Shown here in pieces: positions 3,341 to 9,949 of a stretch of DNA of 29,429 nucleotides (position 1 is the stretch's first letter; every line of letters starts with the position of its first letter). Position numbers and translations under genes: made by a program. The stretch covers positions 1 through 29,429 of the IMG/VR virus record IMGVR_UViG_3300025585_000130. One strand, 5' to 3'. The stretch comes from a virus. The notes under the pieces were generated by a model. That model was given only the letters and a program-made list of their open reading frames with translations. It was not told the origin of the DNA and did no database searches.

Positions 3341-3736
3341 TCAGGTAGGCTTTCCGCAGTGGATGCAGAAGCGCTGCCCCGGCGATTGCGCCCGAACGGT
3401 GGGCACGCCCAGCCATTCGCAGATTTCGTGGTAGCTCACCCAGCCAAAGCCCCGGACGACGCCCGGATGGATGTGGCCCTTGTTGTAGAGCTCGATAGCG
3501 TGCTCCCGGTTCTCGATGCCTAGCTTCTCGATGCAGTTGAAGGTCCGGGCGCTGAAGGGGAATCCCCACACCCGGAGGATGTCCTCGTGACGCTGGGCCG
3601 CCTGTTCGATCTGGCAGATGCGCTGCCTCGATAGCTGCAGGCGCTCGCCGATCTCCTCGAATGTCAGGCCCTCCGAGCGCATCCGGACCACATCTGGCAC
3701 CAGATGCATCAGGCGGCAGTTCTTGCGTGTTCTCAT
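3341..3736 (-). CDS. Regulator with sigma-70 region 4-like HTH and RNAP alpha-CTD-like domain
   Basis: Residues about 23-48 (LTFEEIGERLQLSRQRICQI) closely follow sigma-70 region 4, the -35-binding helix-turn-helix. Residues about 60-112 (FSARTFNCIEKLGI ... VRGFGWVSYHEICEWLG) follow the pattern of the RNA polymerase alpha-subunit C-terminal domain, with helix-hairpin-helix spacing. The C-terminus carries CIHC, half of a possible metal site. The whole is 131 residues. No core sigma region 2 is present, so it is not a full sigma factor. It could appropriate host polymerase or read promoter elements for the phage. It lies three bases after the SSB-like gene stop. Domain assignment is by motif; function is inferred. 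Confidence 0.7.
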   Translation of the reverse strand: MRTRKNCRLMHLVPDVVRMRSEGLTFEEIGERLQLSRQRICQIEQAAQRHEDILRVWGFPFSARTFNCIEKLGIENREHAIELYNKGHIHPGVVRGFGWVSYHEICEWLGVPTVRAQSPGQRFCIHCGKPT

Positions 3737-3739
3737 GGC

Positions 3740-4480
3740 TTAGAAAGGCACGTCGTCAAAGCTGGGATCCTCGGCCTTCTCGATCTCCTCGAGGCGCTTG
3801 GTCACCGCGGCGATCAGGATGATGTCTTCAGGCGTCTTCCCAGAGTTGACCTTGGCCTTTGGTAGCCAGTGCTCGGCCAGGCCGCGCACGGCGTCGGAAG
3901 TCAGCGCCGACAGCGGCGTGCCCTTGAACTTGCCGACGTGGACCTCCACCTCGGCCAGCTTCACAGGCGCCGCGGAGGCCGGCACCACGGTCTTCACCTG
4001 GTCGTCGTCCTTCGGAGGCCTGTCTTCCAGTCGCACCCAGAGGCCCGATGGCTTCAGGGCCTCGCCGTGTTTGTGCGGCATGATCAGCTTGATGTTGGCG
4101 AACGTCTTGGTGCCGTCCTGGCTCTTCTCGTGGACGATCACCACGGTAGCTGGCCTGCCGATCAGGCTGTCGAGATTGAGACTGGTGGTCTCCTCGGCAG
4201 TGAGGGCTCGACCGTGCCAGTCCTTAAGGAACTTGGTCAGGCCGGCCTTCTCATGCAGTGATGCCGTCATTGGGGCCGTCATGACCACCCAGGGCTGCAC
4301 CGGGTTGCGACTCTTGTCGATCATGTCCAACTCGAACGCGATCTTGAACTTTTGCTTGGTGCCGTATTGCGTCTCGTAGGCCTTGAGCGGCGTGATATCG
4401 ACGCAGACCGCGCGGCCTGTGTATTCCGGGCACGGCTCGAAGTTGCCGCCGCCCTTGTTGCTTGTGACTGTGATTCCCAT
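3740..4480 (-). CDS. Single-stranded DNA-binding-like protein
   Basis: The ATG at 4480 gives 246 residues. The C-terminus PSFDDVPF resembles the acidic, phenylalanine-ended tip of SSB proteins, which recruits replication and repair partners. The N-terminal two thirds have the alternating hydrophobic pattern of an OB-like fold with PCPEYTGRAVCVDITPLK near the start, as in many phage SSB-like proteins. The position among helicase, exonuclease and resolvase genes agrees. The upstream in-frame extension runs through a CAA-repeat tract and into the previous gene, so it is rejected. The leader has no Shine-Dalgarno sequence. An alternative is a generic phage replication accessory protein. Confidence 0.7.
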   Translation of the reverse strand: MGITVTSNKGGGNFEPCPEYTGRAVCVDITPLKAYETQYGTKQKFKIAFELDMIDKSRNPVQPWVVMTAPMTASLHEKAGLTKFLKDWHGRALTAEETTSLNLDSLIGRPATVVIVHEKSQDGTKTFANIKLIMPHKHGEALKPSGLWVRLEDRPPKDDDQVKTVVPASAAPVKLAEVEVHVGKFKGTPLSALTSDAVRGLAEHWLPKAKVNSGKTPEDIILIAAVTKRLEEIEKAEDPSFDDVPF

Positions 4481-5041: not shown

Positions 5042-5226
5042 TCCTCGACCTTCCTCTTGATCTCAGTTAGGACGGACTCCAGCACCTCGGCACGTTTCTC
5101 GACGGCGTAGAGCATCCGCTCAATGTTGCGGCAGACTTCAGCCGGTGCCACCTGGTTTGCCGGGTGTTTGTCTCCTGGGATCAATGGCCAGCAAACGGCG
5201 TCTGTCATAGGTGTGTCGGTTCTCAT
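5038..5226 (-). CDS. Small protein with C-terminal coiled-coil tendency
   Basis: Sixty-two residues. The N-terminal half has MTDAVCWPLIPGDKHPANQV, and the C-terminal half is a heptad-like helix (RMLYAVEKRAEVLESVLTEI). Its ATG overlaps the previous stop by four bases. No function is assigned; it is one of several small coiled-coil proteins made by this gene chain. Confidence 0.6.
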   Translation of the reverse strand: MRTDTPMTDAVCWPLIPGDKHPANQVAPAEVCRNIERMLYAVEKRAEVLESVLTEIKRKVEE

Positions 5227-5426
5227 GGTTTCTCGCTTAGTTCTTTGATGATTTTGGTCCGCTCGCGTCCCTTTGCTCGCACGATGAGTTGCAGGATGAT
5301 GATGGGGTTCACGGTTGAAACGTGCTGCCAGTATGGTCTGGCTGCGTCGAGTTCTCGTGCGCGATCGATGTCCACCACAAGCACCTCGCTGGTCATCTTG
5401 TGCCGGTAGATGAATGCGGGGTTCAT
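5223..5426 (-). CDS. Small protein, unknown
   Basis: The ATG at 5426 (67 residues) is chosen because it overlaps the previous stop as ATGA and has GGAGGG four bases upstream. A more upstream ATG at 5441 would lengthen the overlap. The middle, SEVLVVDIDRARELDAARPY, suggests a small alpha/beta unit. No family is recognised. Confidence 0.6.
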   Translation of the reverse strand: MNPAFIYRHKMTSEVLVVDIDRARELDAARPYWQHVSTVNPIIILQLIVRAKGRERTKIIKELSEKP

Positions 5427-5638
5427 CGTCCCTCCAACCATTTCACCAGATCACCAAGCTCGTCGATCTGTAGTTCCAGCCTCTTTATCTTCTCGTTCGC
5501 ACCAGCCAGTTGCCGCTCCAGTTGTCTTGCGAAACCGATCTTCACGAACTGATTGAATCCCGCCGTGATGTATGGCTGACGGTCTGTGCGCGGTGTTTTG
5601 CTGACGACCTTTTTGTTGGCGTTAACAAGATGGCTCAC
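5423..5638 (-). CDS. Small coiled-coil protein
   Basis: Seventy-one residues from a GTG at 5638 that overlaps the previous stop (GTGA). The previous gene's last codons hold a strong AAGGAGG seven bases upstream of the GTG. The C-terminal half is a coiled coil (ARQLERQLAGANEKIKRLEL) that resembles the 66-residue protein at 7466-7666, so the two are probably paralogues. Function is unknown. Confidence 0.65.
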   Translation of the reverse strand: MSHLVNANKKVVSKTPRTDRQPYITAGFNQFVKIGFARQLERQLAGANEKIKRLELQIDELGDLVKWLEGR

Positions 5639-5997
5639 GGCCTCACCTCCTTCCCAATCTTAGCGTCGTCCCATCCTTGCAACAGGTTGTCCATTCGGAT
5701 GGTCCTCATGCTCGGAGATGGAGGGTTGATAAATGTGTACATTGCGTTGCCAGCTATTTCGAGTTCTCGGATGCGCTCATCGTAGAACTTCCTCTCCCCT
5801 TCGAGCTTGTCCCACAGAGCGCGGAGACGGTTTTCGAGTTCGGTGACGTGTCCATTCAACCTGTTAATCTCCTTACGCTGCTCGTAGCATTGGAGCTGTA
5901 GGCTGTTGTATCTTGCGTTGGTCGGATCAGCCTCATACATCGGTTTCCCGAATGCGTCGTTAATTTGGCTCATGTGATTTGTAACTTTACCACTCAT
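5635..5997 (-). CDS. Coiled-coil protein sharing a duplicated segment
   Basis: The ATG at 5997 gives 120 residues and overlaps the previous stop (ATGA); AAGGAC lies just upstream. The middle (VTELENRLRALWDKLE) is nearly identical to part of the protein at 6666-6932, and the underlying 46 bases are identical (5804-5849). The rest differs, pointing to recombination through a shared block. It is mostly helical with a coiled-coil core. No function is known. Confidence 0.65.
   Translation of the reverse strand: MSGKVTNHMSQINDAFGKPMYEADPTNARYNSLQLQCYEQRKEINRLNGHVTELENRLRALWDKLEGERKFYDERIRELEIAGNAMYTFINPPSPSMRTIRMDNLLQGWDDAKIGKEVRP
5804..5849 (-). repeat. 46-bp direct repeat, copy 1
   Basis: These 46 bases are identical to 6826-6871, in the same orientation and reading frame, inside two different small coiled-coil genes. 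Flanking sequence diverges at once. They encode VTELENRLRALWDKL. Confidence 0.85.
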
Positions 5998-6218
5998 GGT
6001 TTGTCCTTCTTTGCTTTGTCCCACTCTCTAACTTTTTCGTGATAATCGGTGCTGTTTCGATGACTCAATAAGCAGTCACCGGCTTGAACCAGCCGCTTGA
6101 TGCGCTCGTTCAGCCGATGGATTTCATCAGCCGCTGCGGTGTACATCTTGGCGCGGTTGAACCACCCCACTTCTCGAAGTGACTGAGCGTCATTTCGCAA
6201 TTGTTCTTCGAGACTCAC
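5994..6218 (-). CDS. Small coiled-coil protein
   Basis: Seventy-four residues from a GTG at 6218 inside a GTGA overlap, with GGAGG seven bases upstream in the previous gene's last codons. Central sequence AAADEIHRLNERIKRLVQAG shares the IKRL..AG pattern of the proteins at 6433-6669 and 7466-7666. It ends WDKAKKDKP. It is probably one of a family of diverged paralogues; function is unknown. Confidence 0.65.
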   Translation of the reverse strand: MSLEEQLRNDAQSLREVGWFNRAKMYTAAADEIHRLNERIKRLVQAGDCLLSHRNSTDYHEKVREWDKAKKDKP

Positions 6219-6436
6219 GGCTTGGCCTCCCTCGCTTTTAGCATTGCGTCGGCCACTGCGTATGCATCTTTGGCCGCTTTATTCCATGCATCTTTGCCTT
6301 CGTAATAGCCAACATCGACTGATTGTCCTGCTAGATTCCCCTGCAACGCCGCCGAGGCAAAGTAGTCGCGAAGGGTCATTCCCCACTCTGTTTCACTTGG
6401 AAACGCCGGTCCTCCGTCGTTGATTGGTGCGCTCAC
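6215..6436 (-). CDS. Conserved phage small protein, DGGPAFP/GMTLRDYFA type
   Basis: The GTG at 6436 (73 residues) is preferred over an ATG at 6463 because it sits in a GTGA overlap with AAGGAGG seven bases upstream. The sequence INDGGPAFP then GMTLRDYFASAALQG and a C-terminal YAVADAMLKAR follows a pattern I know from many phage accessory regions, where it remains of unknown function. It belongs to the chain of coupled genes. Confidence 0.75.
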   Translation of the reverse strand: MSAPINDGGPAFPSETEWGMTLRDYFASAALQGNLAGQSVDVGYYEGKDAWNKAAKDAYAVADAMLKAREAKP

Positions 6437-6669
6437 AGCTTGGCCTCCTTGGCTTCGCGCCATTCACGTTGTGCAATAAGCAGTTTCTCAAACCCATTCG
6501 GATCCTCTCCTGCCTCTGATATTACGGATGCGTATTCAAGCTTGTCCCCTGCTTCCTCCAGCCGCTTGATGTGGTTTATCAAGTCTTCCAGTTCATCGAA
6601 TGCTTCATCTGCTGAGATGTCTCGAAGCCACAACTGACTCAGCAGTTCACGGAGTTTGTCTTTGTTCAC
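6433..6669 (-). CDS. Small helical protein
   Basis: Seventy-eight residues from a GTG at 6669 in a GTGA overlap, with AAGGAGG seven bases upstream. It is acidic and helical (ADEAFDELEDLINHIKRLEE). The IKRLEEAGDKL segment resembles neighbouring small proteins, and the C-terminus REAKEAKL is dictated partly by the next gene's Shine-Dalgarno sequence. Function is unknown. Confidence 0.65.
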   Translation of the reverse strand: MNKDKLRELLSQLWLRDISADEAFDELEDLINHIKRLEEAGDKLEYASVISEAGEDPNGFEKLLIAQREWREAKEAKL

Positions 6670-6932
6670 AGCTTGGCCTCCTTGGCATACATTTCACGCA
6701 GCGAATCAATCGCTTCATTTTGCCGTTTGTTCTGCTCTTTCAACCGTTCGTTCTCCCGCTCAATTTCAGAAACGAGTTCTTCATTCAACTGGAGATGCTC
6801 CATGTAATGCTTCCGCTCGTACTCTAGCTTGTCCCACAGAGCGCGGAGACGGTTTTCGAGTTCGGTGACGTACTTTTCGCGTTCTCTCAGAGAGTTTGAA
6901 AGCGATTCGATTTCCTGAAGGTGCAAGTTCAT
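6666..6932 (-). CDS. Coiled-coil protein sharing a duplicated segment
   Basis: The ATG at 6932 (88 residues) overlaps the previous stop as ATGA, with AAGGAG upstream; an ATG at 7013 would overlap by about 85 bases and is not preferred. Almost the whole protein is coiled coil (LNEELVSEIERENERLKEQN). It contains the 46-bp block shared with 5635-5997. No function is known. Confidence 0.65.
   Translation of the reverse strand: MNLHLQEIESLSNSLREREKYVTELENRLRALWDKLEYERKHYMEHLQLNEELVSEIERENERLKEQNKRQNEAIDSLREMYAKEAKL
6826..6871 (-). repeat. 46-bp direct repeat, copy 2
   Basis: Identical to 5804-5849 in sequence, orientation and frame; see that entry. The two copies lie 1,022 bases apart, so recombination between them would delete four complete small genes and fuse the two coiled-coil genes in frame. 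Confidence 0.85.
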
Positions 6933-7177
6933 CGCTTGTTCTCCTTTGCTCGCTGCCATGCATTGGCCAGCAGCCGATAGTTTGAGTCGGAAATAGTTCC
7001 GTCCTTCAGCCATTCAAGCAGCTCGTCTCCAGTACTCTTCATCAACTTGATCCGATCTTGCAGATACTCCACCAGCTCCTTCAGCTCGTTCACATCGGAT
7101 TGAAGCTCGCGGATCTTTGTGGCCTGTGGGTCGATTGTAGTCACCGTATTCGACGTTGGTATTGTGTAGTCGCTCAT
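6929..7177 (-). CDS. Small coiled-coil protein
   Basis: The ATG at 7177 (82 residues) overlaps the previous stop as ATGA and has GGAAGGAG upstream. An ATG at 7192 is an alternative. The centre is a coiled coil (KIRELQSDVNELKELVEYLQ), followed by a helical tail ending WQRAKENKR. It belongs to the same coupled chain and size class as its neighbours. Function is unknown. Confidence 0.65.
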   Translation of the reverse strand: MSDYTIPTSNTVTTIDPQATKIRELQSDVNELKELVEYLQDRIKLMKSTGDELLEWLKDGTISDSNYRLLANAWQRAKENKR

Positions 7178-7362
7178 TTGCACTCCTTCCATTTGAACTG
7201 TGGTTTACCGCTCTTGTCGGCCACCCACTCTGCATGGCCAGCAGCGACTGCTTCACGCTGTTGTACGTCTCTTTGTGCCTCACCTCCGATGAATCCACCC
7301 AAGATGATTGATCCAATTATCAGTCCAAACATCAGCGCATATGGGAAATCTGAGTCACTCAC
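7174..7362 (-). CDS. Small single-pass membrane protein
   Basis: Sixty-two residues from a GTG at 7362 in a GTGA overlap, with AAGGAGG seven bases upstream. Residues about 7-27 (YALMFGLIIGSIILGGFIGG) form one membrane segment, followed by a charged tail. It could be a membrane-targeted accessory such as a superinfection or lysis modulator, but nothing shows which. Confidence 0.65.
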   Translation of the reverse strand: MSDSDFPYALMFGLIIGSIILGGFIGGEAQRDVQQREAVAAGHAEWVADKSGKPQFKWKECK

Positions 7363-7469
7363 GGCTTCACCTCCTTCTTTCTACACTTGTGCAAGAACGG
7401 GAACATGAATCGACCAATCCACCCGATCAGTTCTCCGCACTTCTGGCAGCAATAGCTTGGGTGCTTCAC
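7359..7469 (-). CDS. 36-residue Cys-rich zinc-ribbon-like microprotein
   Basis: A GTG at 7469 within a GTGA overlap opens 36 codons ending in a second GTGA overlap. The start has AAGGAGG seven bases upstream. The sequence has CCQKC near residues 7-11 and HKC near 27-29, a possible zinc site. It is too short for usual length cut-offs, but coupling at both ends and its own Shine-Dalgarno sequence support it. Function is unknown. Confidence 0.6.
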   Translation of the reverse strand: MKHPSYCCQKCGELIGWIGRFMFPFLHKCRKKEVKP

Positions 7470-7666
7470 GGCTTGGCCTCCTTGGCTTTAATCCACGTTT
7501 GCAGACGTATGTAGGTGTCTTCTTCTGATACCATATCGCGACACGCCTCCTCCAGCCGCTTGATTCGCTCGTTTGCTGCGTTGAGTTGTCGTTCGAGTTT
7601 GCGGCACAGCATACCAAGGTCTGCTACGTTGTGCGGAGTTGAGTCTGATATCGGGGTGTCACTCAT
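7466..7666 (-). CDS. Small coiled-coil protein
   Basis: Sixty-six residues from the ATG at 7666, overlapping the previous stop. LCRKLERQLNAANERIKRLE is a coiled coil closely resembling the one at 5423-5638. The C-terminus WIKAKEAKP is encoded by the next gene's Shine-Dalgarno region. It is a probable paralogue within this cluster; function is unknown. Confidence 0.65.
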   Translation of the reverse strand: MSDTPISDSTPHNVADLGMLCRKLERQLNAANERIKRLEEACRDMVSEEDTYIRLQTWIKAKEAKP

Positions 7667-8342: not shown

Positions 8343-8476
8343 TTGGCCGCCTTTCTCAGCCAGGCCTGAATAGCCTTGTCGGCCACGGCTTGCAATTTGA
8401 GTCCGGCAGCGAGGCAGTAGTCGCGCAGGGCCTTGTGTGTGGTTGGTGTCACGTTGATTGTTTTGGGTTTGGTCAT
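8339..8476 (-). CDS. 45-residue small protein, ribbon-helix-helix-like
   Basis: The ATG at 8476 overlaps the upstream stop (ATGA), and the stop overlaps the resolvase GTG. The order KTINVTPTTHKALRDYC then a helix (LQAVADKAIQAWLRK) matches the strand-helix-helix layout of small ribbon-helix-helix DNA-binding proteins. It is short, but coupled on both sides. A regulatory role is inferred. Confidence 0.6.
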   Translation of the reverse strand: MTKPKTINVTPTTHKALRDYCLAAGLKLQAVADKAIQAWLRKAAK

Positions 8477-8949
8477 TGGGTGATCTGCTTTGCAATATCC
8501 TGGCCAAGGCCAGCGTTCGACCGACCCAGCAGAGCCAGCCTGTGGGCCATCTTCTCGGTGACTGCCTCGTGCCGTTTGCGCTCGCAGTCTGACAGCAGAC
8601 TGAGGTTAGTCCTGGTGCCCAGGATCACCGAGGCCTTGAGGCTGTTCAAGGCCACCCGGTTCAGGTGCTCCATTTCGTCTGCGTTAGTGTTGGGTGGCAG
8701 GATCTGGAAGCCAGCCCCGCGGAGGCCCCGCTGGCTGAAGTTCATGCCTCGGTGACGTAGCTCCCTCCGGATGTTGTGGACCTCCATGTTAAACGAATGG
8801 GTTTCCCTGATGCCATCCAAGGCCTCTTCCATTTCCTCCATCGTCACGGTGAGCCCATGAGCGATGCGGTGCTCGTTGCGGTCGATCCAGTCCTTCCAGA
8901 GCGGAAGGCGCCGGACTTCTTCTTCGTTGATCATGTCTTGTGTTTCCAT
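8473..8949 (-). CDS. Conserved phage hypothetical protein downstream of repeat array A
   Basis: This 158-residue protein begins at the ATG at 8949, 12 bases after the last repeat unit. It is helical and highly charged. A central part (NIRRELRHRGMNFSQRGLRG) is basic, and the C-terminal part (LSLLSDCERKRHEAVTEKMA) is helical; together they resemble a phage hypothetical family whose name I cannot give. It is the first gene after the repeat array that follows the RAMP-like gene, so its message would carry the repeat RNA as a 5' leader unless processed. Confidence 0.7.
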   Translation of the reverse strand: METQDMINEEEVRRLPLWKDWIDRNEHRIAHGLTVTMEEMEEALDGIRETHSFNMEVHNIRRELRHRGMNFSQRGLRGAGFQILPPNTNADEMEHLNRVALNSLKASVILGTRTNLSLLSDCERKRHEAVTEKMAHRLALLGRSNAGLGQDIAKQITQ

Positions 8950-8960
8950 TTGCTGAAAGT

Positions 8961-9061
8961 TGCCCGGTGTTACCGCACACCGGAAAGCGTTGTTGCCATG
9001 CCACGCCTAGCCCCGCCGCACCAAGCCTTGCCCAGCCGGACCGGGCCATGCCTTGAAAAAT
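8961..9061 (-). repeat. Structured pentamer element, array A unit 2
   Basis: On the minus strand this starts with ATTTTTCAA, then 12 in-phase pentamers GGCNN (8993-9052; two have GGT in place of GGC, at 9018 and 9038) ending in GGCAA. It then reads CAACG and a hairpin CCGGTGT-GCGGTA-ACACCGG (8964-8983), followed by GCA and CTTTC-like sequence. The 5-base phase is unbroken over 60 bases. No protein frame fits. Confidence 0.85.
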
Positions 9062-9153
9062 TGTCCCGGATACCGCGCCGGGTCGCGTGTTGCCTTGCCA
9101 TGCCGCGCCAGGCCCCGCCTAGTCCGGCCTAGCCATGCCCAACCTCGAGAAAT
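9062..9153 (-). repeat. Structured pentamer element, array A unit 1
   Basis: This 92-base unit starts at the base after the RAMP-like stop codon with ATTTCTCGA. Eleven in-phase pentamers follow (9090-9144; imperfect at 9120 and 9140), ending in two GGCAA. Then come CACG and the hairpin CCCGG-CGCGGTAT-CCGGG (9065-9082) and ACA. Same length as unit B1. The hairpin stem differs from the other copies but stays paired. Confidence 0.85.
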
Positions 9154-9729
9154 TCAAACCACCTCGACGGTGAACCGGCCGAACTTAGGCCGCCAGTCGC
9201 CCAGGCCGACCAGTCCGCCAGCCTCGCGTGATGCGTCGATCACCTGTTCCTTCGAGACAACCGATTCATCGAACTCGATGGTGCATGTCGTCCACCAACC
9301 GGAAGGAACCATCGGCCGGACTCGAATGATCCCGAGGTCGACTCGCTTCCGCAGTGTGAAGGCTGGGTCGGCGTAGATCTGCTCCTTGGTCTGGCCGATT
9401 CTTCGGTGATGAATCACAGCCTCGGCCTCAGACAAAAGGACAGCGGCGTCGAACTTCTTGCCGAGGCGAGCCTTTTTGGCGCCGTCCTTGAGACATTTCT
9501 CGATGTTGTCGCACGGCAGAACCAGTCCTCCTTCAGCCTCGGACCAGTAAAGGCCGGCCTCCCACTCCAGACGGTCGCGCTCGTCGTGATCGCTTGGAGT
9601 CATGTTTTTGCTGCCTTTGGCTGTGATGCGTTTGATCGCCATGACGTATGGGTTCTTGTGATCCACCATGTCGCCGTTGTGCATGATGAGGGGCCGGAGC
9701 CCGGTGAGTTTGACTTTGATTTGCTTCAT
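9154..9729 (-). CDS. RAMP/Cas7-like protein flanked by pentamer arrays
   Basis: This 191-residue protein starts at the ATG at 9729. Three features recall the RAMP (Cas5/6/7) RNA-binding superfamily. The N-terminal strand is VKLTGLRPLIMHNGD. LPCDNIEKCLKDGAKKA at about 71-87 matches the place of the RAMP 'P-G-S-S-L-K-G' helix. The glycine-rich GLGDWRPKFGRF at 175-186 near the C-terminus matches the G-rich loop. Similar proteins occur in other phages as hypotheticals. There is no cas gene or CRISPR array here. The gene lies exactly between two arrays of a structured repeat, which begin one base after its stop and end about 28 bases before its start, so the repeat RNA is a natural candidate ligand. 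The fold assignment is by motif only. Confidence 0.65.
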   Translation of the reverse strand: MKQIKVKLTGLRPLIMHNGDMVDHKNPYVMAIKRITAKGSKNMTPSDHDERDRLEWEAGLYWSEAEGGLVLPCDNIEKCLKDGAKKARLGKKFDAAVLLSEAEAVIHHRRIGQTKEQIYADPAFTLRKRVDLGIIRVRPMVPSGWWTTCTIEFDESVVSKEQVIDASREAGGLVGLGDWRPKFGRFTVEVV

Positions 9730-9757
9730 ATTTTGCCTTGGTTGTTACTGACGAAAG

Positions 9758-9857
9758 TGTCCGGTGATACCGCCCACCGGCAGGCGTTTTGCCGGGCCGC
9801 GCCCGGCCACACCCAGCCGCGCCAAGCGGTGCCGCGCCGCGCCTTGCCCTGAAAAAT
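9758..9857 (-). repeat. Structured pentamer element, array B unit 2
   Basis: On the minus strand ATTTTTCAG leads into 12 in-phase pentamers (9789-9848; imperfect at 9824 and 9809) ending in GGCAA. It then reads AACG, the hairpin CCGGTG-GGCGGTAT-CACCGG (9761-9780), and ACACTTTC. It is the last unit before the RAMP-like gene start and corresponds to unit A2, also with 12 pentamers. Confidence 0.85.
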
Positions 9858-9949
9858 TGTCCCAGTTGCCGTACTGGGGAACGTGTTGCCGTGCCAGGCC
9901 ATGCCGCGCCACGCCTTGCCGGGCCTTGCCAAGCCGCGCCCTGAAAAAT
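9858..9949 (-). repeat. Structured pentamer element, array B unit 1
   Basis: This 92-base unit begins immediately after the lysozyme-like gene's stop codon with ATTTTTCAG. Eleven perfect GGCNN pentamers follow (9886-9940), ending in GGCAA, then CACG and the hairpin CCCAGT-ACGGCA-ACTGGG (9861-9878) and ACA. It is the counterpart of unit A1. Its loop is ACGGCA against GCGGTA elsewhere. Confidence 0.85.

Follow-up and report, generated by a model that had tools for sequence, protein, structure and literature searches.

A probable VIPR locus with paired guide arrays around its RAMP gene in an uncultivated phage

VIPR (Viral Interference Programmable Repeat) was described in a 2026 preprint that is not known to have been peer reviewed (PMC13142463), and our literature search found no further paper on the system. 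As described there, a VIPR locus consists of Vipr, which is a RAMP protein, the accessory protein vap, and vrRNAs made up of 9–16 YNNGG repeats followed by a structured tail. The NN letters are reported to recognise double-stranded DNA, with one base skipped between pairs, and the complex to silence transcription, its natural targets being satellites, prophages and other VIPRs. Seven types have been published, the VIPR of Escherichia phage SUSP1 (KT454805) being type II, and the system, whose guide code is unlike any other, has been proposed as a viral forerunner of CRISPR (PMC13142463).

Here we analyse a locus in a 29,429-nucleotide stretch of viral DNA (IMG/VR record IMGVR_UViG_3300025585_000130), which as a whole is referred to below as the window. 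The locus was singled out from raw sequence without prior knowledge of VIPR, and our searches match the description given in the preprint: every testable sequence or structure feature that defines VIPR is found at the locus. We are confident that it is a VIPR locus, in which vrRNAs would guide Vipr to silence rival DNA with the assistance of vap. Contrary to the sequence-only reading, which knew of no named system like it, the system itself is thus already known from the preprint; the window very probably holds a further member, distant from the characterised ones, and its clade contributes dozens of loci and about 99 different guide arrays from uncultivated phages, together with a covarying tail structure.

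The closest described counterpart is the VIPR of SUSP1. Like SUSP1, the window carries a Vipr homologue (32% identity over the full length, E 1e-33), a putative partner of the vap1 family and GGY/NN vrRNAs with a hairpin/pseudoknot tail, all in a short phage-borne operon. The two differ in layout: in SUSP1 a single vrRNA precedes the two genes and three follow them, whereas in the window two vrRNAs precede vipr and the other two separate it from vap. They differ also in the arrays themselves, which are mostly GGT in SUSP1 but mostly GGC in the window, where they fill the intergenic DNA, and in the sequence of Vipr, which in the window is far diverged.

Layout of the locus and linkage of arrays to vipr

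All elements of the locus lie on the minus strand, which is also the coding strand of the neighbouring genes. Read along this strand, a lysin-like gene (10279-9950) is followed by vrRNA1, vrRNA2, vipr, vrRNA3, vrRNA4 and vap. Each vrRNA opens with an ATTTTTC or ATTTCTC box, continues with 11 or 12 GGYNN pentamers, the last of them GGCAA, and closes with a hairpin tail. In vrRNA1 (9858-9949, 92 nt) the box and first NN occupy 9949-9941, the 11 pentamers 9940-9886 and the hairpin/pseudoknot tail 9885-9858; in vrRNA2 (9758-9857, 100 nt) the box is followed by 12 pentamers (9848-9789) and the tail (9788-9758). The vipr gene (9154-9729) encodes a 191-aa protein assigned to the RAMPs (Cas7 fold) and to PHROG 4652. 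Beyond it, vrRNA3 (9062-9153, 92 nt) comprises the box, 11 pentamers (9144-9090, the first being GGTTG) and the tail (9089-9062), and vrRNA4 (8961-9061, 101 nt) the box, 12 pentamers (9052-8993) and the tail (8992-8961). The last element, vap (8473-8949), encodes a 158-aa putative accessory protein that is vap1-like and kin to PHROG 5926. The pentamer numbers, 11, 12, 11 and 12, fall within the 9–16 GGY/NN pentamers of VIPR, and the four vrRNAs occupy nearly all of the non-coding DNA at vipr and vap.

A period-5 scanner detected 264 arrays across the loci scanned and 0 in locally shuffled copies, which places the arrays beyond chance; in the window it found none besides the four at vipr. This agrees well with the sequence-only reading, which had seen two paired arrays around 9154-9729, with coordinates, unit counts, lengths and gaps that the scan reproduced, and had found the element nowhere else in the window. 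Its suggestion that the pair had been duplicated as a whole is only partly borne out: the terminal units of both pairs have the longer tail type, which speaks weakly for it, but the NN letters of the two pairs are unrelated and relatives differ in the number of units per side (2 + 3 in L010).

We recovered relatives of Vipr, with 25-100% identity, at 62 IMG/VR loci, as well as in 129 named phage records (including felixounaviruses, LESphi2, LittleE and Trine), in 13 bacterial contigs and on 7 plasmids. Treating protein and arrays as a unit would be at odds with homologues that mostly lack arrays, or with arrays that mostly occur without the protein, and neither was observed. Arrays were detected at most 1.5 kb from vipr in 60 of the 62 relatives; of the remaining two, one (L051) has arrays that by eye are degenerate and in the other (L067) the protein is shortened to 117 aa. 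When loci were collected by the repeat motif alone, 7/7 contained a Vipr homologue, five of these being contigs also found by protein match and two (L003 and L007) carrying a remote homologue (E 4e-14). The linkage extends to orientation, with 223 arrays of the relatives on the vipr strand and 0 on the opposite one, and to the bacterial contigs, where an array lies just 3' of the gene in 13/13. As a control, 80 terminase loci of related phages (700 kb) contained 0 arrays, and a pattern search of 22 whole records gave matches on one strand per record and 0 with the reversed pattern. Arrays linked to vipr and carried by a phage, as in the window, correspond to the mainly viral carriage that characterises VIPR.

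Vipr and its partner vap

The window Vipr belongs to PHROG 4652 (E 1.7e-41), the function of which is unknown, and searches of Pfam, NCBIfam and PADLOC returned no name for either Vipr or vap. Against the PDB, it matches entry 36pp ('SUSP1 Vipr protein') with E 7.1e-53 by profile and 8.4e-26 by single sequence, making SUSP1 Vipr its closest solved relative by sequence; the profile search found no Cas protein at E 1. An alignment of 28 sequences shows an invariant glycine-rich loop, GxGDWRPKFGRF, near the C-terminus. When the AlphaFold (AF2) model of Vipr (pLDDT 92.6, pTM 0.86) is compared with the PDB by Foldseek, the top matches are the Csm3/Cas7 subunits found in CRISPR complexes of types III, VII and IV (best E 4.8e-6), and VIA-align superposes it on Csm3/Cas7 with Z 11.0 and 3.3 A over 148 residues. 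Judged by this model, the window Vipr is a RAMP, and the earlier assignment of a RAMP-like protein to 9154-9729 is upheld by both the homology to SUSP1 Vipr and the fold matches.

With Csm3/Cas7 of class 1 CRISPR-Cas the system has in common the RAMP fold, the glycine-rich loop and an RNA guide that is in part variable and in part constant. Unlike class 1 CRISPR-Cas loci, the locus lacks CRISPR repeats and spacers, its guide code is broken every five bases, and it contains just two genes, for a RAMP and an accessory protein.

The sequence-only reading had taken the gene and its arrays for the whole system, and the interval that it flagged left out the second protein gene at 8473-8949. This gene recurs after the arrays in most relatives, and PHROG 5926 adjoins PHROG 4652 in LittleE, LESphi2, Trine and wV8. 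A vap profile built from the clade aligns with the profile of the partner proteins of SUSP1, wV8, LittleE, LESphi2, prophiBWHA-1 and Medea1 (probability 96.5, E 7.8e-10), while its comparison by hhalign with just the SUSP1 vap1 sequence was unconvincing (probability 2). Judging from the profile match, the gene is the accessory gene vap, of the vap1 family, and this kinship suggests that the locus may belong to type II. The cassette is indeed self-contained, as had been proposed, with vipr, the arrays and vap together making up the putative VIPR locus. Note that the PHROGs, which place vipr in 4652 and leave vap a distant kin of 5926, give neither family a name or a function and draw no link to RNA guides. 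The vap model is of modest confidence (pLDDT 70), with an N-terminal part that resembles a winged helix (Z about 7) and a helical C-terminal part, and Foldseek gave no PDB match for it at E 0.001; the winged-helix-like part would be in keeping with a DNA-binding role, while falling short of proof.

Guide letters, targets and competing explanations

Across 99 distinct arrays of the clade, entropy is low at unit positions 1-3 (0.33, 0.30 and 0.69 bits) and near-maximal at positions 4-5 (1.96 and 1.98 bits), which indicates that GGY is kept while NN is free. Seven consecutive NN are common to another, non-identical array in only 37/99 arrays; guide turnover in the clade is fast. The tail is a hairpin, the loop of which pairs with CGU or CGC just upstream to form a pseudoknot (CGU/ACG or CGC/GCG). 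Among 12 tail variants 98.1% of cells are paired and four pairs are altered on both sides, i.e. compensatorily, whereas sliding the pairing partners as a control lowers pairing to 43.5% or less. The window vrRNAs thus have the constant structured 3' tail of VIPR, which in the SUSP1 clade is a pseudoknot. Neither the window, searched with Rfam at gathering scores, nor seven other loci, searched at E 0.1, yielded a match, arguing against a described RNA family or a hammerhead at the loci searched. We also considered intrinsic terminators, as the first tail of each pair is terminator-like, and rejected them: we counted 5 sites where 2.7 would be expected, and the T run is the box that opens the following unit.

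Under the VIPR reading, the four arrays would be transcribed along the minus strand together with vipr and vap, and the transcript would be cut into vrRNAs of about 92-101 nt. By homology to SUSP1, Vipr subunits are expected to coat one vrRNA, gripping GGY and leaving NN exposed; we infer that there is probably one subunit per GGYNN pentamer. By the same homology, the NN letters would read double-stranded DNA as NNxNNx..., and the bound complex, assisted by vap, would silence a rival phage, satellite or prophage at the level of transcription. The earlier guess of a defence against other phages comes close to the published role of VIPR. The idea that the RNA is bound for its structure does not hold for VIPR, where the NN letters guide recognition of double-stranded DNA (PMC13142463). 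We found neither array pair to have a sigma-70-like promoter (host promoters may differ from the sigma-70 model), and since the arrays also fill the intergenic DNA, the operon transcript is probably what the guides are cut from. A tentative extension, which we consider rather less probable than not, is that the locus represents a VIPR subgroup not described so far, with vrRNAs that occupy the intergenic DNA of the operon, guides that are cut from the message of their own effector and fast turnover against prey.

We searched for targets in several ways. When 186 vrRNAs were compared with the collected loci of related phages at skips of 0, 1, 2 and 3, no excess over shuffled guides was seen at any skip, so the related phages in these loci do not stand out as prey. 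In IMG/VR, the four window guides gave no credible match when searched as exact patterns of 18-20 letters. The sole exact 20-letter match, of the vrRNA2 pattern at L157:848-876, lies inside a 531-aa ORF of an unrelated phage contig, and as the adjoining NN letters mismatch on both sides we rejected it as probably due to chance. The composition of NN matches codon positions 1-2 of phage genes more closely than other codon phases or a uniform distribution. The idea of a skipped wobble base predicts such a fit and is weakly supported by it, an independent-position fit being slightly better. Strand coherence of the codon reading was positive at all three codon phases, and the coherence test is therefore not specific.

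Empty target searches, NN letters that are near random and arrays in every intergenic gap of the operon could all be accommodated by an autoregulatory or structural role, in which Vipr would control the operon by binding the arrays of the message that encodes it, NN being irrelevant. We consider this improbable: the locus is homologous to a system in which DNA reading through NN has been demonstrated (PMC13142463), the NN composition deviates from uniform in the manner of codon positions 1-2, and the number and place of arrays vary among relatives, unlike those of a fixed regulatory site. Still more improbable is a decayed VIPR locus, formerly functional and of no present use to the window phage. 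The lack of targets would suit such decay, as would the few pentamers that depart from GGY (CGCTT at 9828-9824 and GACTA in vrRNA3), but the reading frames of vipr and vap are open, Vipr is identical or nearly so among close relatives, tail pairing has been kept through compensatory changes and GGY is retained while NN turns over. Least probable of all is a remnant of a type III/IV-like CRISPR locus, a lone Cas7 beside a degenerate CRISPR array, which the nearness of the Vipr model to Csm3/Cas7 would suggest, but against which stand a period-5 grammar in place of constant repeats with unrelated spacers, a sequence closer to SUSP1 Vipr than to any Cas protein and the absence of a Cas family match for Vipr, vap or the upstream neighbour in the libraries against which each was scanned, on a contig that may be incomplete.

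Observations at related loci and elsewhere in the window

We also note several features of other loci. In three actinobacteriophages, tRNA-like half molecules, each with an acceptor-like stem joined by a 10-11-nt linker to a canonical T-arm whose loop reads TTCGANY, lie 3' of vrRNA arrays: in LittleE at L072:2750-2791, 2886-2925, 4206-4247 and 4350-4390, in Trine at L074:3579-3619, 3700-3740 and 3809-3849, and in prophiBWHA-1 at L171:2388-2427. A minihelix scan of all collected loci found 10, 8 of them beside GGY arrays, against 2 in shuffled sequence; neither Aragorn nor Rfam reported the halves, which may be processing sites for RNase P or RNase Z. The main text of the preprint describes staggered, hammerhead-interspersed and single-vrRNA layouts, and tRNA-like punctuation is absent from that main text (PMC13142463).

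Two gene annotations in these phages look wrong. Trine gp40 (L074:3585 onward) starts before an array, its vap homology beginning only at residue 111, and LittleE gp35 (L072:2563-2952) runs antisense over two arrays. In wV8 (EU877232), the 58-nt DR_4 repeats annotated around the gene pair (L075:2759-2816 and 4152-4209) are vrRNA tails at the ends of GGT/NN arrays; a mobile element with direct repeats was rejected on the grounds that the repeats sit at array-tail junctions. The motif-only matches at L003:2145-2429 and L007:996-1280 comprise three long arrays (12-15 perfect GGC units), and with their very remote Vipr homologue they are possibly another VIPR type.

Elsewhere in the window, a run of small minus-strand ORFs at 5223-7666 may form a local family that arose by gene duplication, since they share similar coiled-coil-like segments, e.g. 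ELENRLRALWDKLE at 5635-6024 and 6666-7013.
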